DNA of 64,000 bases from contig OX344751.2 of assembly GCA_947034885.2 (NCBI GenBank), positions 14,012,001-14,076,000 of the forward strand, read 5' to 3'. The translations under genes were made by a program, and so were the position numbers. Origin of the DNA: Thuidium tamariscinum. Its lineage: Eukaryota; Streptophyta; Bryopsida; Hypnales; Thuidiaceae. The notes under the pieces are model-generated. The model saw only the letters and a list, made by a program, of their open reading frames with translations, made no database searches and was not told the DNA's origin. This document shows positions 10,953 to 63,315 of the stretch, piece by piece; position 1 is the stretch's first letter; every line of letters begins with the position of its first letter.

Positions 10953-11607
10953 AGGTGATTTCAAAAAACACCTGTTAGTTTTGTTGCATTTTTACAATAC
11001 TCTTGCCACTTCAGCACTTCTAGAGTACTTTAAAATTAAAAAAATAATTTTTAAATTAAAAAATATAGACAATGTATACACCTATAAAATGAAGGTCACT
11101 ACCAAAGGAAAATTATAGAAAAATTCTCTAAGTACGAGAACTAGTTAAGTGCCAAATCTCAAGACAATAGATTTTTTGATGTTTTAATTAATGAAAATAG
11201 GAAAATAAAAATTGAATAAAAAATAAAAATTTCACATTTGAAATAACTTTATTGAGATGGTCATCCACCAAAATAACCACCAAAATTATTTCTTACATGT
11301 TTCAAAATGCAAGTAGGAAGAGGCTCATTTCTTCTAAATTTTAGCTTAAAATTTATTAAGCTAGGTGATCAATAGTACTTAAAAAAAATCCTAAGTTGGC
11401 AAGTGTGACATATAATTGGGGACTATTTTTGGATAATAAAATACTTTGAAAAAATTCCAAGAAATTAGTTAAGGTATACATTATTTACAAGTACCTTATC
11501 TATAAGTTTCAAGTCATTTGGAGACAAAATGAAAATTTTATAGCCAAGAATCTAATCAACTAGAAGCATGTGATAGAAAATAGTGCAAGTGTTTCATGCA
11601 ATCACCC
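10953..11607. mobile_element. Diverged MITE, GGGTNATTGCAAGAAA family
   Basis: The right end at 11583-11607 (AAGTGTTTCATGCAATCACCC) is a close match to the right ends of the three better copies at 42118, 48053 and 62513. The left end at 10953 (AGGTGATTTCAAAAAACACC) is a diverged version of their left end. The 4-bp flanks are TCTT and TCCT, three of four identical. The length of 655 bp is near that of the 731- and 745-bp copies. No coding capacity. Confidence 0.5.
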
Positions 11608-11692: not shown

Positions 11693-12018
11693 GGGTGATT
11701 GCAAGAAACACTTGTCCTATTTTGTATCACATCTTGTATGCTAATTTGTTTTTAGCCATAACTTCTCTGTTTTGGATCCAAATGACTCAAGATTTATAAG
11801 GAAGGTACTCATGACTATCATACACCTTCCCCAATGTTTTGATAATTTTTAGAAATAGTTTACTATCCCAAAATAGACCAATTTGGAGGTTTTAAGTGTT
11901 GTTTAGAATTTGCAAAAACAAATTTTGAGCTGAAATTTGGTTGGGATGGTCTTTCTAGTGGACTTTTAACTTCAAAGTTTTTTTGACACCACATTTGGGT
12001 GCCTTGGGCATTTAGGGG
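11693..12018. mobile_element. Unpaired MITE left end running into a TTAA-element right end
   Basis: At 11693 a good left terminus of the GGGTNATTGCAAGAAA family appears (GGGTGATTGCAAGAAACACT) with no matching right terminus downstream. At about 11968-12018 the sequence instead matches the right end of the elements at 14207 and 61957 (GGTGCCTTGGGCATTTAGGG, followed by TTAA at 12019-12022). Both elements are therefore partial, probably through deletion between them. Confidence 0.45.
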
Positions 12019-12278: not shown

Positions 12279-12507
12279 CACTAGAAGAAAACCATGTTGA
12301 AATCCGTGAAATCACGTCATGTAGTTTGTATTGGGTTCCTGTTTCAAAACGTAGTCAAAATGCAGTGAAAACACAAAAAACCGCAGAAAAAGCATTTTTC
12401 TGCGTTTTTTTGTGTTTTCACTGCATTTTGACTACGTTTTGAAACAGGAACCCAACACAAACTACATGACGTGATTTCACTGATTTCAACATGGTTTTCT
12501 TCTAGTG
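12279..12507. mobile_element. CACTA-type palindromic MITE with 3-bp TSD
   Basis: The element begins CACTAGAAGAAAACCATGTT and ends with its reverse complement AACATGGTTTTCTTCTAGTG. Almost the whole 229 bp is one inverted repeat around a centre near 12393. The target duplication is ATA (12276-12278 and 12508-12510). CACTA termini with a 3-bp duplication define the EnSpm/CACTA class. It has no coding sequence, so it would depend on a transposase elsewhere. Transcribed, it would fold into an almost perfect long hairpin. Confidence 0.9.
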
Positions 12508-42088: not shown

Positions 42089-42590
42089 TTAACCTTTGAA
42101 GGACCAAGGCAATTTAGGGGTGATTGCAAGAAACACTTGTCCTATTTTTCTGTCACTCAGTCATTGCAAAAGTTGTTTTGTGCCACAAGTATTGCAAAAT
42201 TGATTGAATGGACTTGAAATTCAGAGGTATGCATTAGAGGAGATTTGGCTCTATAGAAGATTGTGAATTTCTGCATAGTAGGGAATTCTAGGAACTAGGC
42301 CACTACTAAAATCTGATGTGGTTAAGAAACGGCTACACATCAGATTTTTAATTTCTTTCTTTTTTAAATCAACTTTTTTTTCTCAATTTCAGGAACAATT
42401 TTCTTTTCTTTTTTATATTTATGAGGGTTGACAGCAATCAATTGTTTCCTCACTACTACAAAAACAACATGGGGCACTAGCTTGAAACAACCCTCTATTC
42501 CCCCAAATCTCTTCTAATGCTTCTTATAGCAATGGAAAATGTAAATTATTTCAATGTTTTAATAATTAATTCAATAGGTGAATTTGAATA

Positions 42591-42634
42591 CATGTATATG
42601 TATATGTATATGTATGTATGTATGTATGTATATG
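42591..42634. repeat. (TATG)n/(TATATG)n microsatellite
   Basis: Perfect TATATG units followed by TATG units inside the MITE. Confidence 0.85.
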
Positions 42635-42815
42635 GTTTGTGTGGCTTTTAGTATTATTGAGTACCTTTTTTGAAAAATTATATAGTCAAATTTGGTATTT
42701 TCAATCTTAATAGAAGTATACTACTCTATATTTTTCAAGAAGAAATTGTCAAAAACATGTTCCAAGTGTCTTTTGCATTGGCCTAAAGGGTGCTACATTT
42801 AGGTTTAATTAATGT

Positions 42816-42954
42816 CACTACTAGAAAATGTAGGTATAAATGACTTGTCAACAATGACTACACACCAATAACAATGACTACAAAACAATCATTTTGTAGT
42901 CATTTTGCAATCATTGTGGACAAGTCATATATATATCCCTATTTTCTAGTAGTC
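42816..42954. mobile_element. CACTA-type hairpin nested in the MITE
   Basis: Left CACTACTAGAAAATGTAGG, right CCCTATTTTCTAGTAGTC. The arms continue inward (AATGACTTGTC / GACAAGTCAT). The terminal G is changed to C, and the 3-bp flanks (TGT, AAT) do not match, so the insertion is old or altered. Confidence 0.65.
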
Positions 42955-43420
42955 AATTGAATTAAAAATGGTTTTCTAATTCTAGCATTGAGCTTCTTTG
43001 TTTGTTTGTAGTTGGTAACATTGGCTACTTTTAAAATCAATTTTTCAAGTACATTTTCTAATTTTTAAGAATAAAATGTAGAAGTCTTATTTTCTAACAT
43101 AAATTGTAGCCTATGACTCAAAGTAGAAATTCAAGGCATACAAAAAGATTCAATAGTATCAGTTAACGACCCATAGAGCTTCCAATCTATCAATGTAGAC
43201 TTTTTTTTATAGAAAATTAAGTTATGCCATCTATCCTAGCTTTCCAATGATGAACATTATAAGTTGTCAAAATAGTAGATTTTTAATCCAATCAACCATC
43301 TATATTTCATATTTGATGTCTCAAATAGTATAGAAGGTGACTCATAGTACAAAAAGTACTAAAATGCTAAAAATCAAAAATTCGATAAATTGTATAAGTG
43401 TTTCTTGCAATCACCCTTAG

Positions 43421-46400
43421 TTTTTGTCTAATAAACACTTAAAACTACCAATTCTACTTTGTTCATCCAAAAAATAAGAAATTTAGAATCTAATTGTAGG
43501 ATCTTATACTTTACTTGCATGAGATCATATTATAAATATTTAATGAAGCTAAAACATACAAATTGGAAGATCTATTAGCATTTGAAGTTGGAAAAAAAAT
43601 TGGAGCACTTTGCTTGCAATTTTAAATGACTTTGACAATCATTTGTGTAATTTTTTGCACTCTGAAATTTGAATTAAAAAAAATTTATCTTGAAGAATTG
43701 AGTTGAAAGTCTAGGGGGGGAAATAAATAAATAAATAAAATAGGCTTGATTTTCATTCTTTAAAAATTTATTGAATAGAATTAGGTTTAAGATTGAAAAA
43801 TTAAATCACTAATTTATCTAAGATTGGATTAAAACTCAATAATTCCAATAATGAGATTGTTCTAGCAAACAAATTTAACCTTTTCAAGCAAACTTTTTTG
43901 AAAAATTGTAAAAATTGCATTCAGAAAAATGAATCCCATATCTTATATTTTCAAGAAAATGCTCAAATTGACCCCAAAACAAGATTTTTCATAACTTTCA
44001 CATCATTGATCCAAAATGTAATGAATAAAGATTCTACATATAAGGTAAACTTGCCTACAATAAATAAAATGAGTGATTTAACTTGTTGCAATTCACAAAA
44101 AAAATAAGTTTTTTCGAATACAAAGCATTAGAGGAGACTTGAGGGCACTAGATTACTACAAGTTATCTTGAGTTTCTGGATTGTTGAGAGATTGCCAAGC
44201 TAGAAAATAGTATTTTTTTTGATTAAAAATTTTGAATTTCAAGAAAAAAATGAGTTTTAGGTTTCTTAACTCTTTTTTGAATTTTTGAAAAAAAAAACTC
44301 AAAAAAATTCAAAACTTCTGCCATTATAGGCTAATTTGTTGTTTCAAGAGAACATAAGGAACAAGCAAAAGAATGGCCCTAAAATAGCCCTCCTTTGCCT
44401 TCAAATCTCTCTAATGTCAAATGTGAAGAATCATGAGAGCAATTGAAATTTTATTTTTCTAAAAAAGTATGAATTTTTTATGAATTTTTGAAGTGTGTTG
44501 CCCAATTGGTCCAAAGGAGTCTTTAGACTACTCCAAATCAGCAAAAAAGTGTTTCCATAATGGTCATCTTATCACCCAAAGTAGTCACAACATTTTCAAA
44601 TAGAACTACATAATTACCCTACATAGCCATGACATGAAAGTATAGATGGAAATAACTATTTATGACAATTTATACTAGAAAAGTGTAAAAGTCTTATGAT
44701 AGTCACTCATAACTCAATGACCATCTATCAAGGCAATGAATATGGTCACAAATAAACCTAACATAGTCCTAATCTTGACTTATGGGTAGATAGAAAACTC
44801 CAATGAGTAGTTAACTACTATTATGGGCAAGTTTACATTATACAAAAATATTATCTATAAGGAAAAAAATAAATTTAAATTCAAACTTTTGTGGATTTAT
44901 TTTTCTATCCACCTAGTTGAAATTTGAGCTTATTGCGATATAAGTTTTTCTTTTAATCATTAATTGAGATAAAAATATATTCCTATAGAGCTAAAGAGTT
45001 GTTATATCTTATGAAAAAGTTCCAAAAAGTTTCACTAAAAGTTGAGGTCATAGGAACTTATTCAGAATCCATTGTGTCCCTTGAGGAGACAATGGTCCTT
45101 TAGAAGTTATTCCAAATTCAATATCTTGGATGATGAGTAGAGTGTTTTAGGGTAGTATTTTTTCTAAATAATTTCTCATATACACATAGTAATATTTGAA
45201 CCTTTTCTTAGACTTCTTGTATAACCAATTTCATTGATGAAAATGAAGTGAGTTATGTATTGTACAAAGATGTAAGCCAAAATGTAAAAAATGCTTAATG
45301 GATTCAAGCATTAAATGTTTAAGGTGGATATGCCTTTGTCCTTTATAGATTACCTTGTCCAAATTAATAATTTTTCTATTACAAAAATACAAATTTGAGT
45401 GGTGAAGATTGAAGTGAAATCATCTTCTATGAGTTAATAATTTTTTTCATTTCAAAGTAGTTTATAATGAAAATACAAACCCAATGACAATGATTGTAGT
45501 ATTCTATAATCAATTCATACTAGTAATCACAACATTCAATCTATGGCCATTGGAGCAATATGATTGAACCACCTTAAGCATATTTTAAAATGAGTTTCTC
45601 TAAAGTATTCTCTAATGAGCAAGAAATTTTACCTAAATTTATCTTAACTTCTAAAACAACATTAATACATATACATTTTAAGTGTCAAAGGTATGAATGG
45701 GGGCATAAAATTGTATTTGAATGAAGGAGGAAGTTTGAATTGGGAGCAAAAAATTTGTGAATTTAATGCTTTATTATTATGTAGAATTCAAGAACTTTAA
45801 TTTTCTATTAGTAGGAGACATTATTAAAGAATATTGTACACTTAGAGTAGGGAAGAAAAATATTTAGTACAAGGTAGAAAATAGTATCTGCAACCTCAAT
45901 GATGGTGCCCTTTAAAAATGCTGAGCACCCTTGTAAATCACCTAAACCCTATGTAGTGAAATGAATTAGGTTAGGCTTGTAGTAGAGCACCATTAGGCAT
46001 AGAGCTACAATAAATAAGTGGAGAATGCATAGTAAAGTAATCATCAAAGGATAATCCTATTTTTAATCAAGAGTTTTTGGTTTTATTAAAAATTACAAAG
46101 CGTAAACTAGCCATTCTCCCAGTGATGGCACATGAGGTCACCAATACTATATGTGTCCCTTTAGTACATCTTTTGTATAAAATCACTTTAATAGGGTGCC
46201 TTAGAAAGTAGAGGGAAGCTCCAAGTCCAATGTCAATATTTTGTATATATTGACATATTCCTTCTATTCAAAAATAAGTTTAGGTTTTCAAATATACTTG
46301 TCACAAATTAAATTCGATATGGTGCAAGAAATTGGCTCTTTACAACTTGATTGACAACAAGTGAAACTAGTTCAATTGACATTGAGAAGCAAAAAAATCT

Positions 46401-47403
46401 ACATATACCACTACATAACAATTCAATCCCTACAAAGGGAATTGAAATGAAACCTCTAACCAATTGAAGGTGATAAATTCAACCTAAAATTGTACAACAA
46501 CTACTATTAACAAACTTCTTGTTGAGAATTTCATGGGGTTGAATTGCAAGTGTTAGGCGAAAATTGAACCCATTAAGAGACTTGAGTACCCTAAACTAAA
46601 TTTAATATTAATTGAATTGTGTGCAAGGGTATCCACATCATCATTAACACTACCACATAGTAACTTTAAGGCCATAATTTAGCATGTAGAGATTTGTAGG
46701 AGGCAAGTACAAGCCATCTCTTAAAATTGATTTATGAGATCTTGGAGATGGATTGGGTAATTTGATGACAAATTTTTTAGCCCATCATGCAATTCTTGAC
46801 CCAATTAGAGAGTTGGAGAGGTTTTTTCCAACCAAATTTTTGCATTACAAAGTAGACCCTTATTGGATTCAATTTCCCCCTAATGATATTGTGAGGATTG
46901 AATAGCAAGGACATCATTGGGCTTTATGGCACTAGCACTAGTTGGAAAATTATCAAAATTAATAGCACTAGAGCACTTCCAAAAAGGAAGAAAATTTGCC
47001 AATTTTGACACTTGTTCAACTTGCACCACTTTATTATTGACTTCCATTCATTCACACCTAGGATGGGTTCCTAGAAACTACAATAACTAAGCAATATTCT
47101 AAAAATAGGAATAATTTACAAGTTAATTTAGCCATTTCTACAAAAACTTGGATTTATTTTGGGACAAAGGGAGTATAAGTTAAGAATATTGTTATTGTAA
47201 CAATTTTGTATAGTCTATTCTATGGAATTCCTAATATATATATATATATATAAGTGTAAAAAAGGTTGTACTTACATGCATATGGTAATTGTGTATAAAT
47301 AGCAATCTTATTACATGTATAGTACCTCATATTCCTAAAGTGTTCCATTCATTCTCTCAATACAAACAAAAACTAGCCTTTAGATATGGGTACAACAAGT
47401 TGA
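43421..47403. other. Four kilobases of AT-rich DNA, no gene
   Basis: No open frame above background, no paired termini recognised. Includes an (AAAT)n run near 43719-43740 and (TA)n at 47233-47252. Probably decayed transposons. Confidence 0.45.
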
Positions 47404-47407
47404 TTAA

Positions 47408-49762
47408 CCCCTAAAGGACCTCAAGACATGTTCAAATTTCAAACAAGAGGTGTATGCAAACATGTCCCAATTATGGAGTAAAAAATTCATTCATCTAAAT
47501 ACATATAGATTCTTGTATTGGTTCCCTTATATTTAAATAATAGGTCTAAATATCTTTCATTTACAAAGAAAAAAGTATGTCTAACCTCAAAAAATTCAAC
47601 GGACACAAGTATGTCTAATGTCAAAAAATAACATTTTGTAGTTCAAAAAATGACCTTTCAACAACAATATGAATAAATAAATAAAGTAATAAAGTAATAA
47701 TACAAAATAATTAGAATCTAACATTTCAAATTCATAATAAAAAAATCTTTTAAAGATTACAAAAAATCAATCTATTATCACTTTTTTAATTTATGGTTTT
47801 TGATTTTATTGGAGAACATTAATTGTTTTAGTCATTGGTTTAATAATATGAATATGATTTATAGATTATATTTTACAAATTTTGTTTTGAAGTCATCATT
47901 TTAATTATTCTTCAAAGTTTCATTTTACAATTCATCTCTTTATTTTTAGAAATCTTGATTATTCCCTTATCCCTAAGTAAAATATTGTTATTGGTTTATA
48001 TTGTAGTCATCCTATAATATCAATTATATTGTTTTTTTAGCACTATACTCTAGGGTCATTGCAAGAAACACCTGTCCTATTTCATGTCACAATTTGAACC
48101 ACTTTTTTGTTGTCTACAATAACTTTTGGAGATTAAGTCCAATGAAAATGAAATTTTTATTGAACATACCTAACTTGAAGTTTATTAGATCCCTTATTTT
48201 TCAGAAATTAAAAAAAATCATTTTATATTTAAAAAACATTTTCGTTGAGCGTCACAAAATTACGTTTATGGTTATCATTACGTTCGCAGTGTCTAAATTT
48301 AATGATTTCAAGACGAAACTTTCATGGTCTATTTGTATAGGTGTAAAACCTATGAATTCCAAAAAAAAATCTAAAAATATGTTTTTTTATGTCCTCCACA
48401 TGAGTACCAATTTTTTTTCGTGGCACGCAATTTTTGAACATTGATGATGGTTCTAAGATCGTTCCTTTGGTCAAATCTCATCGAAATCAACTTTCCTCAA
48501 ATGGCCAATTTTTATTTTTTCTTAAAATTGATTTTCCTATTTTTTACAAATTAAAATGTTGAAGTACTAATTTTCATGAGATTTTGCACTTTTTTGGATT
48601 TCCTACTTAGAGATTTTTCCTATGCTTTTCCTTTCTAGGGTATATTCTTCTTAAAGGTTTATACATGAAACATATTTTTCACTTTTTTTAAAACTTTTTT
48701 TTCTAATTTTAAAGTACTCCCGAAAAAAAAAGACTACATTGTAAAACGCTACGCTTTTTGGTAGGTGTTTCTTGCAACGACCCTCTAGTTTTCTTGAAAT
48801 GCCTATTAGCTACTACAAAATGGGTTCTAGAATGCACATATATTATCTTCTTTTTTTCAAAAATTCACAAAATTTACATCATAATATTCATCCACTATCA
48901 ATGAATATATCATAAAATTCACAAATATTCATGGATTGTGTATGACTATTTTCAATGTGGTCATTTCACTTGTGCTTTTGCATTTCTAAGCTCAATTTTT
49001 GACAATTTTTTGGGGTGCCCAATACCTTAACCCATAAACAATCAATGCCTTTTTTGCCAAAAAATATTCAAAATTTCCATTTCTATCACGAAAAATTGAA
49101 AAATTGAAAAATAGTATTTTCAGACAGTTAACCATAGGATCTTACACTTGAATAGTAAGAAAATATGTGGAATAAATTTCAAGAATTTTGACCACACATT
49201 GCAAGATGTATGCATTTAAAGTGAAAAAACAAATTTCTTAGCATGTCACTAGACTAGATTTTTGAATTTGAACCTTCTTCACTTATTAAAATGTACTCAT
49301 TCCAATGGTGATATAATTGTAGCAAGCAAACTAAACCATGTGGAACATTTTTTTATAGAATTGTTAAAGTTGCATTTAGAAATGAATCCTTTAAGTTATA
49401 TTTTGAAAAAAGATGCTTAGATTGCCCAAAATACAAGATGGTCTATAACTTTCACATAACTTGTTCAAATGAAATGAAACAAAGCTTTTGATGTAGACCA
49501 AAATATAATTTGTGAGAAAAAATTATTTTGAAGAAAATTCAAGATTTTGAAATATTTTTTGCTACCCAACTTATCTTGTTTTGACTTATTTGGGCATTAT
49601 TTTTTTCCTAAGCACCAAATAGGAAACAAAAAATATTCCAATGAAGATATTTAGTTTTTATATCCTTAAGAAAAGTTTTAAGAAATCATGACATAAATTG
49701 ACACCATAAGTACTTGCCCAAAATCCAATTTGCCCTCCAAATATATAATGGTTCTTCAAGGG
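47408..49762. mobile_element. Possible TTAA-bounded element with a nested MITE
   Basis: The left edge TTAA then CCCCTAAAGGACCTCAAG and the right edge ATGGTTCTTCAAGGG then TTAA (49763-49766) have termini of the form CCCYTRAAGRACC. The 2355 bp contain the MITE at 48053-48783 and no coding sequence. No second copy confirms the limits, so the pairing may be accidental. Confidence 0.4.
48053..48783. mobile_element. MITE, GGGTNATTGCAAGAAA family, TCTA target duplication
   Basis: Left end GGGTCATTGCAAGAAACACC, right end GGTGTTTCTTGCAACGACCC, TCTA on both sides (48049-48052, 48784-48787), 731 bp. The interior is related to the 745-bp copy at 62513: shared ATTTTCACTTTTTTTAAAA near the right end, a CTACGCTTT/CTACGTTTT subterminal block and CCTACTTAGAGA. 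The frame at 48094-48444 is not conserved between copies. Confidence 0.9.
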
Positions 49763-49766
49763 TTAA

Positions 49767-51249
49767 GAGGTTATTTTTAATTACTTGCCAAATTTCAATA
49801 ATAAGAGGAATTCAACACATGTTATATGGAATAATAAATTTTGATTTGGATGCATGGTCAAATATCATCATATTGCTCCTTGGGAATTGATGTTACCCCG
49901 GAAAGGTTTGACCATTGTTTCTTGGCAATATAACAATTTTGTGTGGTTTACCATGAATGGATCTTTTTTGCAAATTTTCACACAGTATGTGCCTTAGGAA
50001 TATTCTAAAATCTTCAAGGCCTAATGATTTTTTGACAATGAAAATTTTCAATGAATTGTGTCACTTTGATATTTTTTGCACATAAGTGTCTTTGAAAATT
50101 TTAATTTCAACTTTATAAAAGTAAAGACTACTTTGTCTAATATATATGGAATTAATTGTAGAAAATTTTGATAGTTGAATTTTTAGATTATAAAAATTTT
50201 GGATGATGAACTTTATAGGAAAAAATGGAGATTTTAAAATTTTATTTTTATAAAAGATGAATAATTCTTTTTTACCCCACCTCCACCCCCCATCCCACCC
50301 CCAAACTATCTTAGAATCCAAGGCAAATGTAGTGTTTTTTTATTTTGAAATTTTGAAAAAAAAAAATTGTCTAAAATTTATACACATGTTCAAACAGAAG
50401 GAGTAGAGAGCTAAAATTAACCAAATTGGATCCTACAAAAAATTTAAAGATTTAGATATGTATGAATTTCTTAAATTTAATAATTGTCATCATTGTCATA
50501 CTATTTAGAACATCTTTAGAACATTTGGAATCATTCAAATTATTTTGTATTCTTAATCACACTAGGTTGAACCATTTATTCTTAAAATTGTTAAAAATAT
50601 GAATTTGAAAAAATTCTCAAATGTTGATTATTTGTGTAGAACAAAGACTAGAAATGTCCAATTTTTTTTTTTTTCATCTCTACTAATCCTTTCATTGGAA
50701 AAACATTATAATTTCTCCCTTTTACTATTAGTCCACATTTTCTAAATAAATTTTAAAATACTTCTTACAATTAAATTTCAGAAATTAGAAAATACAACAA
50801 ATATGTAAACTTGTTATTCTACAATTGAAGATCCTAGTCTACAAAGTATCAAAATTTATTTCAACCTACCAAGAATTTGCCATTGAAAATTTGAAGAGGA
50901 CACATCATGTCCCCTTTGGTCCTTGAGGGGTTAAGGCACAATCATTTTCATAACTTTTGACTACATGTAATTTTGATTGCTAACTTGCTAAGCAAGCAAG
51001 CTAAAGAGTTCAAATTTTTTTTGAATCACTTTAAAAAAAAATAAAAAATAAAAAATATTTTTCTCAATTTATATGTATATGAAAAGCTTTAAATCATTCC
51101 ATTTTGATTGATGAGATGAAATTCATGAGAAGTTTTAATTTGGAGGTAGTTTATAAGTTTATCTTTACTCTAAAATAAGTTTTGAAGTCCGCCTAATTTC
51201 ACTATTCTCTGTGCACTTCCCTCCATGATCCCCATTGAGAAGGGCAGCC
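49767..51249. other. Non-coding DNA with element C fragments
   Basis: 49960-50040 and 50935-51180 resemble parts of element C (TTTGCAAATTTTCACACAGT, then CATAACTTTTGACTACATG and a segment like its middle). A TTAA preceded by GGTCCTTGAGGGG at 50931 is another probable element end. Confidence 0.45.
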
Positions 51250-51281
51250 CCGCCCACCCACCCACCCACCCACCCACCCCT
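51250..51281. repeat. (CCCA)n microsatellite
   Basis: About seven CCCA units. The Gly/Trp-rich minus-strand frame over it is an artefact. Confidence 0.85.
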
Positions 51282-51594
51282 GGAAACATTCCCCAAACTG
51301 GCTAAATTTTGCTCGGTTTCTACAAAAATTATCCTTGTGCTACTAATACACAGTAAAAAATGGAGACATTTCAACCAAAATTGCAATAAATGATAGAATT
51401 TAGTAGCCAATTTTCAACCTCCTCCATAAAGGAATAAGCATCTATTTACTCATTTTTTTGTCATAGTATTCCCAATAATCCTTCACAACTTGCAAAATCC
51501 TTATTTTTCTATTTTATTTTGATACTACTCACTCTCAAGGTAGCCAAAGTTGATACATATTTGTTTGAAAGGGTAGCAATTGTACTAAATTCTA

Positions 51595-51949
51595 CTCCCT
51601 CTGTCGTACTAAAAGCTTCCAAAATTATTCTCCTTAAGAAATTAACTATATTTTTGATGAAAGTGCCAAAAGTACATGCATTCAAGAATGAATAATCCAT
51701 CCCTTAGATCTAAGTATGCAAAATTTGGAGTTTTGGCACTATTGTTTAGGCACCATTGTTTAGGCACTCCAAATACAAGTCAAAAGTATGAAATTTGACA
51801 TATTTTATAATTGTTGTTAGCTTTGTCATTTTAGATGATTTAAAGGGTGGTGGATATAACAGGATTGAAATAATTCATTCTCCAATCTAAGTATCCAAAA
51901 ATTATTTAGACGGTTTTGGGTGTTTCCACTTTATAGTGGGACAGAGGAA
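51595..51949. mobile_element. Possible Stowaway-like element, 355 bp
   Basis: Left CTCCCTCTGTCGTACTAAAAG preceded by TA; right TATAGTGGGACAGAGGAAG followed by CA. The ends pair imperfectly in the way Stowaway ends do. Confidence 0.45.
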
Positions 51950-52345
51950 GCATGAACTAGTTCAGGGATCACCCCGGGAGTCCGTAGGAAGAATGGTCCA
52001 GGGGCCGGGCGAGGCTCCATGTGTTCATTGAAGCTGCTGTCAGTTGGTTGAGGTGGAATTCAAGGCCGTTGGTGGTTATTTTATTCGCTCCTTCAAATGG
52101 CCAAGCAGGCTGGGTGGGGCAGAGTGGCGGGGTTGGGGGTGGGTTGAGGGATGTTGCTCGTGTTGTCGGCTGTGTGGCAACCACGACTTCAAATCCATGT
52201 GCATGCCCTCACATGGTCAGGCCAGGCTTCGCAGCTGCAAAACCAACCAACCAACCCAAGGCAACAAACAGGCTCCTTCAGCAGAGAGCAGCAGCAGCTC
52301 CTTTCCAAAACACATGGATAGATAGATGGATAGATGGATAGATAT
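51950..52345. other. GC-rich patch ending in a GATA microsatellite
   Basis: Balanced-to-GC-rich DNA with several overlapping frames on both strands, none recognisable. (GATA/GATG)n at 52315-52344. It could be the remnant of a gene exon or a GC-rich transposon; I cannot tell. Confidence 0.35.
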
Positions 52346-52459
52346 TACGCTTGCCTACTATGGGAGTACTGTACCTCCTTCATATTATATTTTGTCATTA
52401 ACTAGGTGTAACATGGAATGCAAGATGTATGTTAACCCTGACTAAGGTAACACATTCAC

Positions 52460-52790
52460 AAATGGACCATCCAAAGGTTGGAATTGAATTTGAGGGAGGT
52501 GAAACATCCTGAAATATTCTTTAGTAAATTTTTCTAGAAAGATGAGTGCAACTGACATCTAATCCAAGTCGTTTCATATTTTGTGGAGCTTTGTGAAGTA
52601 AGTTATAAAATTTTGAAGTTAAAATGGGATAATGGGGCTCTAAAATGGCCCACCTCCTAAAATGTACATTGCTTCCACATGGCTAAAGGCTATGAAAAAG
52701 CAACGTATACAAATAGTGTACAATTAAAGAGGTGAGCCATTTTAGAGATTGAACATTTTTTGAACTTGTTACCTTATAACACCATTGGCC
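52460..52790 (+). repeat. Dispersed repeat module, copy
   Basis: Closely related to 59862-60120 in the same orientation and to 60560-60830 and 29150-29330 in reverse. Shared text includes TCCAAGTCGTTTCATATTTT, AATTTTGAAGTT and GGCTATGAAAAAGCAAC. No termini or coding sequence were defined. Confidence 0.65.
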
Positions 52791-52933
52791 CACTATGGAT
52801 ACTAAGGGCCTCCTTCCACGTGAGTGGGGTGGACATAGTTAGAAGGACAAGCTACAAGTACAAGTGAACAATTATACTTCCATGTGAATCCAAAGGGTAG
52901 GAAGAGATGGAATAAGAAGCATGGCACTAAATC

Positions 52934-53171
52934 CTCCATTCAAAGTGGGCCCAACAAGGTAAATTTTGGATTTTATAGGATTAAAGTAAAAAAAATCCCC
53001 TTGTTTTGTGTTGTGTTTAGGGTATGTTCTAAACCTCTCCTAGCTAGTTTGAGATCTCTAATTGCAAATATGAATTCAAAATTTGAGAAAAGAGATATTT
53101 ACAAAAAATAAATAAATATTTGCATTTTCCTCAAAGGTAAATTTATTCATTTGGGCCCACTTTGAATGGAG
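52934..53171. mobile_element. 238-bp element with perfect 20-bp inverted termini
   Basis: CTCCATTCAAAGTGGGCCCA at 52934-52953 is exactly reversed at 53152-53171, followed inward on both sides by GGTAAATTT-like text. The interior includes the CAAATATGAATTCAAAATTT repeat. A related, degraded edge occurs near 59740-59790 (GTGGGCCCAGCAGGGTGGAT). The target duplication is not clear. Confidence 0.7.
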
Positions 53172-55647
53172 AATTTTGTATTATTAGAAGAGATTTGAGG
53201 CCTTTAGCCAACTGCGAGTTTCCAAACTATGGGAACGTAAAAATTGCTACAGGAATGCAGAAACAAGGGAATATAACGTGGCTGAGACTGTGCCATGTCA
53301 TTAGATGGGTTTTTTTAATTTTTTTGCTTTCTAGGACTCCATTTAAAAAAATAATTATTGGCCTAATAGTAACCAACAATTTTGGGAACAATTTTGGAGA
53401 CAAACCTGAAATGGCCCTCTAAAGGTTCCAAATCTCTCCTAATGCCTCCAAGTAAGAATGCCGCACATATTCATTCCCTTCAAGTTTGACCACTCTCCAC
53501 CAATGGGCTTGTCCACCAATTTTGGTGAACCTTGAAATCCTTCTTATCCACTCATCGTAGCCGACAAGACAATTTGTATTCATTTCTTGTCTTCTAGTGC
53601 TTTTTTTGCCCACCTGGCTCACAAGGAAGGAGGCTCTAAGTGTCCAATGGCTAACGGAGAATTCTTGCGTATAAGACAAAAGTACAATTGTTCATCCTTG
53701 AAATTTTGTACAAAAAGGGAAAGATCTTGCATAATAATTTGATTTCCAATTAATATTTTTAAATATTTAAAAGTAGATGATTTGCACTACTTCAAAAAGG
53801 ATGATTTCTATAGAAACCAATCCATCATTATAGGATTAAAGTAACCCATCATTTGAAGTCTACATTTTTTAATTTTTAGGAAAAACATTGAAATTTTTTA
53901 TTTGCCACCCTTAATAAAAATTTGAAAATTTGGAATTCAAATTTGAAATCAAAGGATCCAAATTAGTTTAAGGAAGTGAAGAACAAAGTAGGAGAGGTAA
54001 AGAATAGAAGACACTAAACAACCTCAAAGTAGACGTGATTTTTTAAATATTTATCCTTAATTGGTGTGAAGGATGATGGATACCAAATGTACACTTTGGA
54101 TTGGACCACTCTAAAGTCTAACACATAGAAGCAAGGAAGATTTTCTACAACATGGATGGTGCATTTCTTCAATTAGCCAACAACTTCAACCAAAAGCTAA
54201 CTAACTAAGGTAGAAACACCCATTAGCACACATGTTACCATTCTTGTACTCTAGCTTGCACCTAATTGTATTCATGGACTTTGGTTAATGTGTCCTCTTA
54301 ATGCTTAATTCTCATTTGTTGATCTGTTTGAAGCAAACATACATAATTCTAACCCACTGACCATTGATTTTTGCAAATTTCAGATTTAGGTCCACTTACG
54401 TGACAATTTCAATGGTTTAGGGAGCTAGCACTTTGAAAATCATGGGAATTATATAGGACATTGGAAAAATCTATTTTTTTTAATATTCATGATTTTCACT
54501 CATTAATATTTGAAAAATATTATTTTTTGAAAAATGTGCCTCCAACTATGTTGAATTGTTTATATTGACAAATTTTGGTACTTCCACCTTAAAGCTTGTA
54601 TAAAAAAAATCTGAGTCAGTCTACATAGTTTTTCAAACTAGGGTGAAAATACTCATAACATCCTTGTACCATGCCTATTCATGTACCCTACACTTCCACT
54701 GAATGTATTCCTTGATTTCCATTAAATTGTCCTTCACAAGCATCATTAAATTGTACCCTTCTTTAATTGCTATTGATTCAATGTTGATTTTAGGTGTAGC
54801 TATATGATGGTTCCATCAGTCTAAGAGAATTTAGCATTAAAAGGACACATTAGCCAAAGTCTAGGAATACAAGACTTTGGTTGGGTTGCTTTGAGAGAAG
54901 GTGGTGTTGCTTTGAAAATTTATAAAAAATATGTGCCATATACTAGAATTCTAATTTTTTTAAATTTGTGATTTTCAATTGCCAATACTACAAGAATATT
55001 TTCTCTAGAAAAAGGTACCTCCGACTATGCCAAATTGTTTATTTTGATGTTTTTAGATGTTTCTACCATAGATTCTATGGATCAATCTCAATTGCAAGTG
55101 CTATCCTTGTTGATTTGTTGTCTCTTTCAAAAAGTAAGGTAAACCCCCTTGTTGTGATCTTCATTGTTAATTTATTTATTTGAAACAAAGAAAGGAGACT
55201 ATTACTACAATGAAGGGAAGTACATGAGCCAAGTTGCAAGTAGCCTTGGATTGAATCACAGGTAGTGCTATCAAAGAGTGGTGGTAGCCACCCATCTACA
55301 CCTCATTGCTTCTACAATGGCTAGAAAATAATACCATACCAAGGACCAAAGAGAGTCCATTGGGTTTTTACTCAATCATCTCTATAAACAAACCATAGCA
55401 ACACCACCTCCTCTCAAAGCAGCCCAACATCTAATTCTTTATTTTATTTTTTAAAGAAATATAAAATGTCAATTTTATGGGTATTATTTCAGTCACATAG
55501 AGATACTATATGCAAAGTACCAAGAAGTGAAGTCAAAGGTCTATAACAAAGTTCATTTTTACTATACATACATACACATATGTATAGAGAGGAAGAAAGA
55601 GTAACTTCTCTTAACTAAGTCATCTCCAAAATCAATAGAATGCACCG
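53172..55647. other. Non-coding DNA with two dispersed repeat copies
   Basis: 54470-54600 and 54955-55070 are copies of the ATTCATGATTTTCAC...GCCTCCAACTATG module of 18.9-20.5 kb. The minus-strand frame at 53419-53679 is not recognisable. Confidence 0.45.
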
Positions 55648-55651
55648 TTAA

Positions 55652-56569
55652 TCCCTAAAGCTATAAAATTGCGATTTCGAGCAGCTGATTACGAATGAAG
55701 TTTTTATTTTTATTTTTTGAAATTTAAATAAGAAAATTTCTCCTAAAGTATCTTTAAGGCCCAACAATTTTTATAATTTTTGATTACATGGTTAAAATGT
55801 TATGATATGTCATTTCTTTTACTTAGCAAGCAGCCTAGATAGCTAAAAAAAACTTCTTTAAAAATTATATTCTTAAAATGAAAAAATTTGAAATTGATTT
55901 ATTAAATTTATATCTAAGTGGAAAGCTTTTAATCATTCAATTTTGATCAATGAATCAAAAGTTATGAGGAGTTTTAGTTTGAGGTAGTTTGCAAGTAGTT
56001 TTAGAATCTCTACTCTACAAAAAGAAGTTTGAAATTTTTTATTTAATTCAATTTTAATATTTTTGAAAAAAATTAAAACTTTGGATAAAGATTTTTTATT
56101 ACAATATTACAACTATTGGGATTGGCATTTTTCATTTCTATAAGTAAATTCTTCACAATTTAGTATTTTGAAGCATTTTCTACTTCTTTCTATTTACTAT
56201 TTTTTTCTATATGTTGTACAATTCGAAATGATTAAAAAAAAAATTTGAGCACATAGACAAATTGCATTAAAGGATGAATTCAAGGAATAACCACCATTTT
56301 GAGCACTTTTTCATACAAATGTGACTTTGTGAAGTGCAATCACCTGGACTTTTGCATGGATAAAAAAAAGATTTTTGTCGATCCAAATGTTAATATCTTG
56401 CAATTTATATAGTGAAAATTTCTGAAATTTTTTCCACATCTTTTGGAACCACCTTACTACAAGATCCTATGATTACATCTATAAAAAAAATTCAAAAAAT
56501 TTGCACTTATATTAGAAATCGTTGTTTTGGAGTGTTTTAAGTGAAAATATAGCCAAAGACCTTTAGGGG
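55652..56569. mobile_element. TTAA-bounded element C, full copy, 918 bp
   Basis: Starts TCCCTAAAGCTATAAAATTG and ends ATAGCCAAAGACCTTTAGGGG, with TTAA at 55648-55651 and 56570-56573. Related over most of its length to 24800-25688 and in its middle to 63660-63990 and 50935-51180. No coding sequence. Confidence 0.7.
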
Positions 56570-56573
56570 TTAA

Positions 56574-56967
56574 TGATTGGACCCCACTCCTTACATCTTT
56601 ATTTAATATTTCTATTTTCTTTTAAGTATAGACATCAAATTGTTTGATCATTTGATCGTACTATCTTATAGTTGACATTACTACAAATATGGGTCTCATT
56701 AACTCAAAAATCATGACTCTCGTGAGAAGACACTTAAGCTTGCATGAGGAATTTTTTTTAATCAAATGGAAATTGATTGCACAATAAAGAACATGATGAA
56801 TTTGAATATGCATTTGGAGCCTTCTTGTAAGTCTTCAATTTTCCAATCTCCAAGACCTTGTCATTAGATTTTTTTTTCAAGAGCACTGGAGGGCCATTTC
56901 ATGCCTATTCTCCATGCTATAAACCATTTACTATCACCCAAAATAAAATAATAATTAAATAGTCCAA
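56574..56967. other. AT-rich spacer before the minisatellite
   Basis: Nothing recognised. Confidence 0.4.
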
Positions 56968-57793
56968 TAAAATTATTTAAATTTTATTCATAAACTTATT
57001 TAAATTTTATTCATAAACTTATTTAAATTTTATTCATAAACTTATTTAAATTTTATTCTTAAACTTATTTAAATTTTATTCATAAACTTATTTAAATTTT
57101 ATTCTTAAACTTATTTAAATTTTATTCATAAACTTATTTAAATTTTATTCTTAAACTTATTTAAATTTTATTCATAAACTTATTTAAATTTTATTCATAA
57201 ACTTATTTAAATTTTATTCATAAACTTATTTAAATTTTATTCATAAACTTATTTAAATTTTATTCATAAACTTATTTAAATTTTATTCTTAAACTTATTT
57301 AAATTTTATTCTTAAACTTATTTAAATTTTATTCATAAACTTATTTAAATTTTATTCATAAACTTATTTAAATTTTATTCATAAACTTATTTAAATTTTA
57401 TTCATAAACTTATTTAAATTTTATTCATAAACTTATTTAAATTTTATTCATAAACTTATTTAAATTTTATTCATAAACTTATTTAAATTTTATTCATAAA
57501 CTTATTTAAATTTTATTCATAAACTTATTTAAATTTTATTCATAAACTTATTTAAATTTTATTCATAAACTTATTTAAATTTTATTCATAAACTTATTTA
57601 AATTTTATTCATAAACTTATTTAAATTTTATTCATAAAATTATTTAAATTTTATTCATAAAATTATTTAAATTTTATTCATAAAATTATTTAAATTTTAT
57701 TCATAAAATTATTTAAATTTTATTCATAAAATTATTTAAATTTTATTCATAAAATTATTTAAATTTTATTCATAAAATTATTTAAATTTTATT
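56968..57793 (+). repeat. 23-bp minisatellite, about 36 copies
   Basis: The consensus is TAAACTTATTTAAATTTTAT followed by TCA. About 36 head-to-tail copies fill 826 bp with almost no other change. Variants are ordered: early units mix ATTCATAAAC and ATTCTTAAAC, the middle is uniform ATTCATAAAC, and the last seven or so (from ~57628) read ATTCATAAAA. The first unit also has the AAAA form. The core ATTTAAAT is self-complementary. Confidence 0.97.
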
Positions 57794-58303
57794 GTCTGAA
57801 GTGGCCACATCAAGACTCTTGATTTGGCACAATTCCTATACTCCCTACACTTTGAGAACTCACAACCCTTTACAACTCTAAAATCTCATTTAATGTTTTT
57901 TCACTTAGCAATGTGAATCCAAAGTAAGTTAGTTCTAGATTCATTATTTTGAACATTGGAATTTTGATTTTGGCATAGAATGAATTCCCTAAGCTAGAAA
58001 GGGTTCTTTCTCTCCTTCCCTATTAGTTGTAAAACATAACCATGAAATAACCATTTGGTCCGAGAGGACCCTAAACTATGGGATGATGGTGGGAAGGCAC
58101 CCAAACCAAATGACATGGTTGTTGGTCTCATACTTGTTAGTCACAAGATGTTAATGCGGTGCAAATTAAACCTCTCTATGTAATGGAAAACCCTCATAGT
58201 AAGTTGTTGAACATGCTTGTGTCCAAAAAAAGACAAAAAATATATATTCATGGAAGGGGTCTAGGTACAAGTGATTTCAAGGATGGTCCTTGCTTAAACT
58301 TAA
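57794..58303. other. Non-coding DNA after the minisatellite
   Basis: Nothing recognised. The frame at 58159-58347 ends across a TTAA-type terminus and is not called. Confidence 0.4.
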
Positions 58304-58669
58304 CCCTTGAAGGACGAATTGGTGGCTATGGAAATCATGCATTTTGATACCGTGTAACATCATCTACTTTGAATAAGCCAAATACACTCATTAGAAGTCA
58401 AAGTCATGTAGAAGATCTCCCCTTTCCACCCCTACTACCAAAGATAAATAGTTGCACTTTTGTCCAACAAGGGAAGATTCTTTGTCATTTATCAAACACG
58501 AAACGTCCGTTGCGGTGTGTAAGAGTTAATTTTGTAAAGACATTGTAAACGAGAATGGGCCAATGGATGACTTCACTATTGATTGCAAATAAAGCGAGTG
58601 GACCCATTGGTCCAATAATTAGAGAATTTTGGAGACTAACTTGGTCATGGGAGCCCCATCCATGTAGGG
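58304..58669. mobile_element. Possible small TTAA element abutting family B
   Basis: TTAA (58300-58303) then CCCTTGAAGGACGAATTGG; the right edge GGATGTAGGG-like text meets TTAA at 58670-58673, which is also the left TTAA of the next element. Short CCCTT/CCCTA termini only, so weak. Confidence 0.3.
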
Positions 58670-58673
58670 TTAA

Positions 58674-59404
58674 CCCCTAAGTGATGCCGGCACCATTTTT
58701 TGGCATTCGGATGACTTCATAGGGGTAGAAGAAGACCTAAACAATAGTTTTTTCATTCCTTTTTTTTAATGACCTTTCATGTTGAGTCATAAAGAGTCTC
58801 CAATTGAGTTTCTAGTCGAACTAATGTTTGTTTTCATGTAGTTGAGAAGTAATTAGAGAAAACGGATGGCAAAATTGCCATTTTAGTGTATTTTGAGAAA
58901 TTGACTAAATCTGAAATTTCTCCTTGAAAATGACATTTTTTGAGTTTGAGCCCAACTAATGAAATGAAGGTCCTCCACTCTAGTTTCTACTCCAATTGAA
59001 AATTTGAATTTAAAAAAAAAAATTGAATATTTTATTGCATTTTGAACTTCAGTTGCAATTTTAATGTCCATAGCATCCTATGCATAGAAGTACACGAAAG
59101 TTGAGTTTCCACCTTGATGTTTGTCACTACAATGTACAAACATGGTGAAATTTTCAGATTTTTGAGATAATTTTCTACTTGATATGGTTTTTTCTTCACT
59201 TTTCCTTCTAAAAAATTCCTAGAAATCAATTTTCCTCAAAAAATAAAAAAATGTAAATTTTTTGTGGAGTATAGAAGACACGTACTTTCATCTCTGAAAA
59301 ATAAAATAAAAAAGTTTCGGACATATCTGCTTCCAAAATGGTAACAAGCTGAGTGACGGGCAAGGAGGCTTCCAAGCAGTGGTGATAGGTCCGTCCTTCC
59401 AGGG
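58674..59404. mobile_element. TTAA-bounded element, family B (copy 2, inverted)
   Basis: Begins CCCCTAAGTGATGCCGGCAC after TTAA and ends GGTCCGTCCTTCCAGGG, where the right TTAA has decayed (TCAGTAA). The entire 731 bp is the reverse complement of 20898-21622 with scattered changes, so both boundaries are supported by comparison. Confidence 0.8.
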
Positions 59405-59860
59405 TCAGTAAGTTGGTTCCCATGGAGCCCCATTCTCCGAGCCTGCACTGCCCTGGCCTGCACTGCCAGTTCCAAAGGCTGCATCCCAAGGCTGATCCAT
59501 TTGGTGCAAGGGCCATGCCAGGAAAAGGAGCCCCCTTTCTAATGAGGAGATCAATGAGGAGGCACGGCAGGCCAGGCCAGGCCGAGGAGGAATCCTGGAA
59601 AAAGGCCAACTGACGGAGGAAAGCTCTTCAATTGAGGAGACGGAGGAGCAGGCCGGGGGGCTCAGTTAAGAACTTATTGAAGCTGCCACCTACTGTGAGG
59701 CGTGGCAGAGATCAGAGGGAGACGGGGGGAGGACGGTAATTCCTAACTTACCATCCAAGGTGGGCCCAGCAGGGTGGATTTACCTCAGGGAAAAATACAA
59801 GAAATTTTTTTGTAAGTAAGGTAAGAGGTCCTATAGTGGACCATCTAAGGGCTGAAACAG
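59405..59860. other. GC-rich patch, no recognisable gene
   Basis: Frames on both strands (59226-59613) overlap each other and have no family resemblance. Similar in composition to 51950-52345, and both are followed by the same dispersed module, which suggests they belong to one larger repeat. Confidence 0.4.
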
Positions 59861-59861
59861 A

Positions 59862-60830
59862 ATATCAGGGAGGTAAAACCTCGAGAAATATTTTACAGTA
59901 AATTCTCCTTGAAAAACAAGTAGAATTGACATCTAACCCAAGTCGTTTCATATTTTTCTGAGCTTTTTTGAATTAGTTATCAAATTTTGAAGTTGAAAGG
60001 GCATAGGGCTGTAAAATGGTGCCCTAGCTACAATGTACACTGTCAGTACATTGCTGAAGGCTATGAAAAAGCAACATGTACAACTATTGTACATTTAAGA
60101 TAGGGCACCATTTTGGAACCCGCTCCATTTAAGAGCCTTCTACCTTAATGTTTTCTTGCTATCAGAGACCCCAAATTAGCCAAGAAAAGTCTAGCACACA
60201 CCTTAGACATAGCACAAAATAGGAGGCTTTTCTTTTTTTATCCCAGTAGGTCTTAGTAGGTCTTTGGTGGACCTACTGGGGTACATTATCCATAGACTGA
60301 AGTCATAAATGTTTCATAAACAATTTAATATTGCCTTTTTGTGTATTTAGTTGTACTTAAGTACTCACTAATCACTCATTGACATACTATCCCTTGTTGA
60401 CAAAAATGCATTGTTTTTGTCACAAAAATGAATGAATTATAATGTTTTTTTGAATGAAATATAGGTTGAAAGTAGAAGACAAAATTAGGCAATGAACAAA
60501 ATTGGGTTGGTCTATCTTAGCTAAGGTAGGGGGGTTGTGAAGCACTCAAGTTTTGAAATCATCCAACTAAAATGTACATTGTTTGTATATGTAGTTTTAT
60601 CATTGTACTAGCAATGTACAAATAGCATACATTTGAGGAGGTAGGTAATTTTTGAGCCCTATGCTATATCAACATCAAAAATTCATAACAAATTCCACAA
60701 AGCTTCAAAAAATATGAGACGACTTGGATGAGATGCCATTTCCATTTGCCTTTCAAGGAAAACTTGTTGAAAAAACATTTCAAGAAGTTTCACCTTCCCA
60801 AATTTAATTTTAGCCCTTAAATAGGTGCTT
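59862..60830. repeat. Two opposed copies of a dispersed repeat module
   Basis: 59862-60120 (forward) and about 60560-60830 (reverse) are copies of the 52460-52790 module, facing each other around 60140-60240, a reverse copy of the CAAATATGAATTC-associated repeat (GACCCCAAATTAGCCAAG). Confidence 0.6.
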
Positions 60831-60950
60831 TACATACCTTCTACTTTAAGATTCATGAGAAAAAAACAAAGCACCTACACTTGGAAAGAAAATTCAGTAG
60901 GGAAGCACTGGCTTACTTTGGAAATAATGTCCTTGCACAAATCTCTTCAC

Positions 60951-61323
60951 CACTATATTAAAATTGGTAAATAGTGTTGGCAACACTAATTTGTTGAGAT
61001 AACACTCATTGTGATTAGCAAGGTTAGTGTTAGAAGATTATTTATCCATTCTAACACTATTTTAGCTCTATAGTAAATTATAGTTTTCTAGGAAAGGGAC
61101 AGATTTTCAAGGCGGGAGGAAAAAATTACAATTTTGCAGGGAAGGGACAGATTTTTATGGCGGGGGGTAAAAATTATAGTTTTGCAAGGAAGGGATAGAT
61201 TTTTATGGCAGCAATTAAGTGCCCCAACACTATTTACATATAAGTTGAAAAATAGTGTTGGTGGTAAAAACAAGGAACAACACTAATTATCATCCAACAC
61301 TATTTACCAATTTTAGTGCAGTC
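60951..61323. mobile_element. CACTA-like element with an internal 48-bp tandem repeat
   Basis: Left CACTATATTAAAATTGGTAA continuing ATAGTGTTGG; right CCAACACTATTTACCAATTT then TAGTGCAGTC. Inner ATAGTGTTGG motifs recur in both orientations. Three 48-bp units (61095, 61143, 61191; AGGGACAGATTTTTATGGCG) lie in the middle. The 3-bp flanks do not match. The minus-strand frame at 61088-61273 is made by the tandem repeat. Confidence 0.6.
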
Positions 61324-61349
61324 TATTCTAAGAACAATCCCACATCTAC

Positions 61350-61443
61350 ACTATGAAGCAACATTGTAAATGACTTGTACTATTGATCTCCCTTTGACAA
61401 GGGAAATCAATGGTACAAGTCATTTACAATGTTGCTTCATAGT
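61350..61443. repeat. Long near-perfect hairpin, ~45-bp arms
   Basis: ACTATGAAGCAACATTGTAA at the left pairs with TTACAATGTTGCTTCATAGT at the right; the arms differ by one or two bases, loop of a few bases. It adjoins the CACTA-like element. A MITE or a small-RNA precursor-like fold are both possible. Confidence 0.75.
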
Positions 61444-62512
61444 TCAAGTGTGCCCATGCTCTAAAGCAACTATTGAATGGTTGGTCCCTCTTTTCTTGGG
61501 TTTCAGTGTACAAAAAATTTATTTCACCTCATTTTTCAAATGAAGGAAAACAAATGCAAAGTTTAAGATTAGTGGTTTTATATTTTTCAAAGCATTATTG
61601 AATTATTTATGAATTTCCAAAGATTTTTATTATAGGCACTAATTCATGCCAAAAATAGATCTTACAAAACTCATTCAGTTGCATCTTGTAAAGAGATGTA
61701 GGAAAACCAAAGAGAATCATTGACTCTTGCAATAAAAAAATATTTTAGCCTCAACCCATTCATTCTCTCTTATATATCAATTTTAGGACCACTTTATGTC
61801 CATTTAAGAGCTAATTATAGGCTATCATATAAGAGTTGATCATTTTTCAAGTAGACCATCTCAATAATAACTACATGTTATATGCCCCTATAGACTAAGT
61901 TGCATTTTTTTGGCAACATAGAAGTTTTCAGTAGCTCACTTTGAATGGAGTTTTAACCCCTAAATGTCCAAGGCCCTTTTTGAGCTTTAAGGAATTTGCT
62001 CTAAAGTGAACAAAAAGTCAACTTTATGATGAGCTTTATCAATTTTTTTCAAATGTAACTATACAAATTCAAACTAGACATCTTAGAGATTACTTAAGGA
62101 AAGAAAGCATGACAATATCACTTATGGATTGAAAGATTATAATGTTTGATCATAAGGGTGTTAAAATTGCAAAAGTGATGCGAAGTCTTTCAAACCTTTT
62201 TTTACAAGTCAAATCTAAAAAGTTGGTGACCAAAAAAATATGAGGTGAAAGGGCCTTACATGCATAACCCCAACTAATTTATAGGCTTTTCAAAATCTAC
62301 TCTACAATTTTTTTTAAATGAATTTCTAATGTGATTTTTTCTCCAAGATCTAGTGTATTTGAGGCTCATTTCCAAGAGCCCTCAACGCAAGGGGTGCTAT
62401 TATGTGAACTTAAAAGTTTGAGCATGTAAGCCTAGAAGACTACATACCTATGATATAAGTGTCTATATAATAGTAACCTTCTATAATAATAGTGTATATA
62501 TGCTATAGATAT

Positions 62513-63257
62513 GGGTGAATGCAAGAAAGACTTGTACTATTTGGCGTCACACTTTGAGTGACGGAGTTGTCACGAGCTATAACTTTTGAAGCATTAACTC
62601 TTTGAACTTGAAATTTTTATTGAAGATGACTGACTTGATAGTTATCAAAAACCTTATTTTTCAGAAATTTTCAAAAATCATTTTATATTTAAATTCTAAT
62701 TTCTCTAATTTGTCACACTTTGCGGTTTAGGGGTTTTTAGTACTGGGGAGTACTTTAAATTAATAATTTAGAGCTGATATTTCTAGGGTCTATTCCTACA
62801 CTAAATAGGCATGTTTCCACCGAAGGAAATTAAAAAAATCATTATTCTCTTTCCTCTACATGTGTGCTAACAAGCCTCCCTTGCGCGCACATTTTTGAAC
62901 AATCAAGATAGTTTTCGGATCATTATTTTGGTGAAATACCTTTACCATAAAGTCTTCCCAAATGGAAAATTTTTAGTTTTAATAAAAATTACTTTCCCTA
63001 TTTTTTACAAATTAAAATGTGAAAATATAGTGAAAGTTACAATTTTCACGAAATTCACCACTTTTCTAGTTCTCCTACTTAGAGAATTTTTCTATGCTTT
63101 TCCTTCCTAAGGTATCTTCTTCTTAAAGGTATATACATCAAATATATTTTTCACTTTTTTTAAAAATTGATTTACTATTTATACAGTACTCCCAAAGAAA
63201 AAAGTGAGTATTGTGCAAAACGCTACGTTTTGCCGCAGGTCTTTCTTGCAATGACCC
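62513..63257. mobile_element. MITE, GGGTNATTGCAAGAAA family, ATAT target duplication
   Basis: Left GGGTGAATGCAAGAAAGACT, right AGGTCTTTCTTGCAATGACCC, ATAT on both sides (62509-62512, 63258-63261), 745 bp. The interior is related to the copy at 48053. It is the innermost of three nested elements. No coding sequence conserved. Confidence 0.88.
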
Positions 63258-63315
63258 ATATCTATATTATAGGTATTTACATTATAAACACCCTCACTGG
63301 TTGCATGATATTCAC

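Follow-up and report, generated by a model that had tools for sequence, protein, structure and literature searches.

Elements of the window

The window, i.e. the whole 64-kb stretch of Thuidium tamariscinum DNA analysed here (G+C content 34%), harbors several elements delimited by a common 20-bp inverted terminus and referred to below as GGGT-type (Table 1). Allowing up to three mismatches, this terminus was found at nine positions of the window, versus none in 100 shuffled sequences. The three copies initially proposed were confirmed, together with their inverted ends and their exact TTAG, TCTA and ATAT flanks. The preliminary description also mentioned partial copies at 10953 and 11693. This proved right for the latter, a single truncated end for which no mate was seen, but not for the former, which is a complete 655-bp element with its mate at 11588-11607.

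The element at 42118 is the longest of the three copies. Its relatives (best 40 of 1314 candidates, itself aside) aligned only to about positions 1-115, 402-698 and 839-1299. Since the scored relatives match three separate blocks, this copy is an ~845-bp type having gained two stretches, the second of which is bounded by CACTACTAGAAAAT...TTTTCTAGTAGT. A separate 1.3-kb type was rejected, as the scored relatives are devoid of both stretches.

Table 1. GGGT-type elements, their target duplications and their parts in the 64-kb window
Feature	Coordinates	Strand	Basis
GGGT-type MITE of the ~845-bp type, with two stretches gained	42118..43416		1 mismatch per end; alignment of relatives
Target duplication TTAG, left	42114..42117		flank comparison
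Target duplication TTAG, right	43417..43420		flank comparison
Stretch missing from scored relatives of 42118 element	42233..42518		gap 116-401 in relatives' alignments
Small inverted-repeat piece, CACTACTAGAAAAT ends, within 42118 element	42816..42953		gap 699-838 in relatives' alignments; ends located
GGGT-type MITE, main ~733-bp subfamily	48053..48783		39 other full or nearly full-length copies, 97-99% identity (best 40 of 5362 candidates)
Target duplication TCTA, left	48049..48052		flank comparison
Target duplication TCTA, right	48784..48787		flank comparison
GGGT-type MITE, AAAGAC(C/T) subfamily	62513..63257		terminus match; clusters with L019_1234 and L021_4507
Target duplication ATAT, left	62509..62512		flank comparison
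Target duplication ATAT, right	63258..63261		flank comparison
Older 655-bp GGGT-type MITE	10953..11607		flanks TCTT/TCCT, one mismatch
Single end, truncated copy of ~722-bp type	11693..11880	+	first ~187 bp 85-86% identical to ~722-bp subfamily

Other features were recorded in the window. An open frame at 6372-7205 displayed a tnp2-like (CACTA-group) match below the cut-off (PF02992, E 2.3e-4), and the frames at 5191-5931 and 7454-8158 on the same strand had no transposase match in Pfam. A near-perfect palindrome occupies 12279-12507 (arms of 113 nt, 97% complementary, separated by 3 nt); by eye, a similar sequence occurs upstream of the DUF7869 gene of locus L033 (see below). The open frame at 23818-24387 yielded weak, below-cut-off matches only, two of them to kinases and one of these to a fungal type.

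Family size, subfamilies and coding capacity

The genome searched comprises 363,211,507 bases in 19 contigs, about eleven of them large. This layout, the 34% G+C of the window, plant-like gene fragments and the many DUF7869 matches on the small contig C11 would fit a plant, probably a moss. Exact ends numbered 1148 forward and 1169 reverse, compared with none for the reversed pattern. With up to three mismatches, 11,969 + 11,961 = 23,930 ends were found genome-wide (control: 16 + 26 = 42). Counting two ends and about 730 bp per element, and leaving out more degenerate copies, this corresponds to an estimated ~12,000 elements and 8.7 Mb, or ~2.4% of the 363-Mb genome.

Of 41 end pairs, 33 spanned 655-764 bp and 37 spanned 655-1299 bp, the others measuring 1800, 1818, 3137 and 4430 bp. 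Length types of about 722, 733, 802, 845 and 1075 bp were distinguished. At a distance cut of 22%, 37 copies fell into 12 groups. The largest comprised 11 copies (79-95% identical), eight of which were 721-724 bp long, and the second largest 10 copies (81-97% identical), nine of which were 730-734 bp long. Smaller groups consisted of elements of 734-736 bp, 729-745 bp (bearing AAAGAC ends) or 1075-1079 bp; seven further copies, those of 802 and 845 bp included, were each isolated. Pairwise full-length identity ranged from 65.5 to 96.7% (204 pairs). The AAAGAC(C/T) subfamily alone accounted for 468 + 480 exact GGGTNATTGCAAGAAAGACY ends genome-wide (control 0); two facing exact ends of this type lie 2426 bp apart at C1:674868-677293.

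The elements are bordered by GGG..CCC ends with TIRs of ~20 bp. Positions 8-16 and 18 of the terminus were identical in 67 or 68 of 68 ends, a conservation which is partly built in, the ends having been picked by pattern similarity. Because element bodies diverge down to 65.5% identity while the terminus stays conserved, these data suggest that one transposase, or close relatives, would recognise all subfamilies. The subfamily of the 48053 element moved recently, as 39 other copies (best 40 of 5362 candidates) were 97-99% identical to that element.

The two largest subfamilies displayed no sign of coding. In 19 of their copies, stop-free stretches attained 46-129 aa at the longest, none of the alignment gaps was divisible by three (0/31 and 0/51, respectively), and a Pfam scan of two MITE ORFs gave no match. 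Inverted termini, a target duplication of fixed length (see below), small size, lack of a coding signal and high copy number are the hallmarks of MITEs, and all were observed here. The assignment to a MITE family made in the preliminary description was supported by the shared inverted termini, the 23,930 ends and the short non-coding copies. We consider, with a probability of roughly 0.9, that these sequences form an extensive family of DNA transposons which are non-autonomous and move by cut-and-paste, at least part of the family having been recently active.

Target site duplications and insertion events

For 41 facing end pairs, chosen without regard to duplications in loci long enough for pairing, the flanking sequences were compared. 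An exact 4-bp direct repeat was found in 31 pairs, while shuffled flanks gave a mean of 0.97 and a maximum of 7 in 2000 rounds. Repeats of 5 to 10 bp were absent from all 41 pairs, and 3-bp matches occurred in two (shuffled mean 1.18). The 4-bp duplication first noticed in the window is therefore the rule among these pairs, 31 of 41 being exact and none fitting 5 bp. The 31 exact duplications represented 30 distinct sequences, with an abundance of A and T; TTAA was not among them. Independent flanks and exact 4-bp repeats of 30 sequences ruled out an assembly artefact or segmental duplication as the origin of the copies.

Ten pairs lacked an exact 4-bp repeat. Four of these differed by one mismatch, and the L004 pair would fit given one extra base. 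The L033 pair is false, an end having been joined to a motif inside another element, and the L101 pair is a composite of two distinct elements, with a local repeat between them. Pairs L011, L013:1546 and L023:4391 had no exact 4-bp repeat, without explanation.

Insertions into identifiable sequences were also examined. On contig C5, a copy inserted into another member of the family: the two halves of the host copy aligned to positions 1-513 and 510-731 of the query, and thus overlapped by exactly four bases. At locus L014, a MITE (9075-9805, duplication TGCA) lies beside a piggyBac match (PF13843, E 1.4e-21). When the flanks were joined with one TGCA kept, a single frame read through the insertion site. 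This piggyBac relic (L014:8519-10000) has stops further upstream, where its assignment to piggyBac is a by-eye reading. Comparison of the nested cases L019 and L024 with intact relatives gave no clear count of duplicated bases.

Copied sequence in a 3.1-kb element

The 3137-bp element (L024:243-3379, duplication TATT) is nested in another copy (L024:9-3855, flanks GGCA/GGCA). Over 1037 bp, its interior was 97% identical to DNA lying ~3.8 kb downstream; additional blocks matched at 94-97%. A 206-bp piece of it was present at five places, its own locus included. A weak RRM match lay below the cut-off (E 0.023) and presumably derives from a PTB-like gene. The element looks like a Pack-type capture. 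The direction of the capture is deduced from the fact that no GGGT-type ends (up to five mismatches) occurred around the downstream copy.

Search for a transposase-bearing copy

No transposase-bearing copy with these ends was found in the part of the genome that was read. Reading of 20 regions surrounding exact ends (10 kb for 19 of them, 2.4 kb for the other) revealed MITEs and the single 3.1-kb element described above, and no transposase copy. A Pfam scan of the ORFs near MITEs detected copia-type and piggyBac pieces as well as genes, and no transposase inside a GGGT-type element. Exact ends were absent from viral_contigs. The KDZ profile (PF18758) matched nothing here, nor did it match the controls.

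Several ends were devoid of a mate within five mismatches (e.g. L008, L013:5589, L022:9806, L016 and L017). For those of L008, L013 and L022, similarity to known MITE types ended after about 370-490 bp, as expected of truncated copies. Loci L016 and L017 share a ~5.7-kb repeat, with 92-93% identity over several kb from the GGGT end. By eye, the similarity runs on about 110 bp outside that end, which suggests a different sort of repeat, with a GGGT end lying ~110 bp inside one of its borders.

In addition, 40 ends without an exact mate were probed 640-800 bp inward. A mate with up to six mismatches was present for 25 of them and absent for 15. When read over 300 bp, each of the latter showed at least some similarity to known subfamilies, which in L090 was confined to short stretches. 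Four of these 15 ends had a new subterminal sequence in common, and extension of one end carrying it revealed an element of 802 bp flanked by TTGT at either end. Symmetric extended ends occurred at 589 places, and the one facing pair among the first 100 consisted of two separate MITEs. Finally, the ends of the 4430-bp L101 pair are exact and lack a target duplication. Other copies of its interior are found mainly near C1:21.28-21.44 Mb, and six ORFs gave no transposase match.

DUF7869 elements

Elements encoding a DUF7869 domain (PF25273), which we suspected to be Sola-like, were considered as possible carriers of the MITEs. They are abundant (854 candidates, best 150 scored) and intact, the open frames with matches attaining 1076 aa among these best 150, and one GGGT end (L033:153-172) adjoins such an element. 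Yet, homology among the 11 elements read stopped at four other kinds of end. Seven of them ended with AACAC..AATTAGACATTCTTGCACTT or AATTCGTTATTTTTGCACTTGGCC, two with AAGGCCTTATTCGTTAAAATGAGAC and two, assigned by an 8-residue motif only, with AACCTATATTTAACTAATTATGG; one end was seen of each, except for L036. With such different termini in these 11 elements, DUF7869 elements were rejected as the source of the GGGT-type MITEs, and that they carry them is very improbable. We read the L033 case as a DUF7869 element that landed 23 bp inside a GGGT copy, the other side of the insertion lying beyond the sequence read.

Some characteristics of these elements were recorded for their own sake. Many of their open frames span 950-1076 aa (L033, L034, L035, L036, L037 and L038), L036 has 24-bp exact inverted ends (817-840 with 6015-6038), and near-palindromic repeats adjoin the DUF7869 gene. 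Contig C11 (17.5 Mb, 4.8% of the genome) holds 47 of the 150 matches listed (best 150 of 854). PF25273 looks like a transposase domain in this genome; no mention of DUF7869 was found in the literature search.

Relationship to described superfamilies

The duplication length, which had led the preliminary description to discard the usual plant classes, still does so (31/41 pairs with exactly 4 bp, 0/41 with 5 bp). hAT and CACTA elements duplicate 8 and 2-3 bp, respectively, and were not matched by the 4-bp pairs. PiggyBac and the other TTAA classes duplicate TTAA, which is missing from the 31 exact duplications. Neither the 7-12 bp of Mutator nor the TA dinucleotide (2 bp) of Tc1/mariner (PMC10741241, excerpt) was matched either. 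Furthermore, piggyBac ends are CC..GG (PMC10045372, excerpt), not GGG..CCC. According to the same source, IS481EU duplicates about 4, 15 or 25 bp and occurs in parabasalids; its TNT..AYA ends differ from GGG..CCC and exclude this class (PMC10045372). PIF/Harbinger proper was set aside for its 3-bp TNA duplication (in part after PMC12477816, excerpt). The excerpts of PMC12730594, PMC12477816 and PMC12550479 do not settle the class of the MITEs.

A DDE-type transposase encoded elsewhere would bind the conserved terminal core of the MITEs, move the element and join it to target DNA with a 4-base stagger, which the host would then fill in to give the 4-bp duplication. Such a transposase might come from a divergent relative of PIF/Harbinger in the PHIS group, whose ends the G-rich ends of the MITEs resemble. 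Harbinger-type domains are abundant (PF13359, best 150 of 331 candidates scored), a large number of those scored lying in long open frames, and PHIS members produce no duplication or one of 1 to 4 bp (PMC10045372, excerpt). However, Harbinger proper duplicates 3 bp and, on C1 below 14.25 Mb, the nearest of 11 listed matches was ~14 kb away from any of 100 listed exact termini. A PHIS relative with a 4-bp stagger is thus an improbable source.

Two candidates stand out for the class of this transposase, Sola and an undescribed class. Sola elements combine 4-bp duplications with very variable ends, and occur in the moss P. patens while being rare in flowering plants (PMC10741241, excerpt). The 4-bp duplication by which this source recognises them was found at the MITE pairs. 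In Repbase, non-autonomous elements are classified according to two criteria, an identical duplication length and their first 11 bp (PMC4455052, excerpt). Sola had been suggested early on from the 4-bp length: the duplication length and the variable ends do fit (PMC10741241, excerpt), yet the part of the genome read yielded no copy with these ends that encodes a transposase of the Sola type. Moreover, the 11 DUF7869 elements read, which were candidates for Sola-like elements, terminate differently, as seen for most of them on a single side. Accordingly, that a Sola transposase encoded in this genome moves the MITEs, which would then be non-autonomous Sola elements, is a tentative proposal.

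The other option is a superfamily not yet described in plants, which we find rather unlikely. The free-sequence 4-bp repeats are unlike those of hAT, Mutator, CACTA, Harbinger and mariner, and the string ATTGCAAGAAACAC had no match in the literature search, which does not show that the family is unpublished. This option nevertheless draws on absence of evidence, namely the lack of a transposase in our searches and a comparison that did not extend to Repbase and Dfam. In its complete form, this option would be an undescribed plant superfamily that has GGG..CCC ends with a core of ATTGCAAGAAA, captures genes, and inserts with a 4-bp stagger at any sequence by means of a transposase belonging to none of the known classes; in that form it is doubtful.

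Whichever superfamily moves them, the MITEs represent ~2.4% of the genome by end count, moved in part recently and are flanked by duplications of a length not generated by the common plant classes. Identification of their transposase would broaden the range of Sola in land plants or else bring a superfamily to light, and would help to classify MITEs left over by duplication-length rules.

Comparison with known systems

Like Tourist, Stowaway and other plant MITEs, the GGGT-type elements are small, non-coding, bordered by inverted termini, nested and present in thousands of copies. In contrast to them, they exceed the usual few hundred bp and display 4-bp duplications instead of 2, 3, 8 or 9 bp. 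Pack-MULE and similar elements capture sequences, and the L024 element likewise carries ~1 kb of copied sequence at 97% identity, although it is the only such GGGT-type element read.

Ginger, the other candidate class of the preliminary description, shares duplications of 4-6 bp with these MITEs. It was nonetheless excluded by its published TG..CA ends and TIRs of 40-270 bp (PMC10741241), as opposed to the GGG..CCC ends and ~20-bp TIRs observed here. Most reported Sola elements measure 2-9 kb (PMC10741241, excerpt), whereas these MITEs are mostly under 1.1 kb; Sola also has a DDD transposase, and none was found with the MITEs in the part of the genome read. Both nevertheless share the 4-bp duplication and variable ends, and a moss is a plausible host, given that P. 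patens has Sola (PMC10741241, excerpt).
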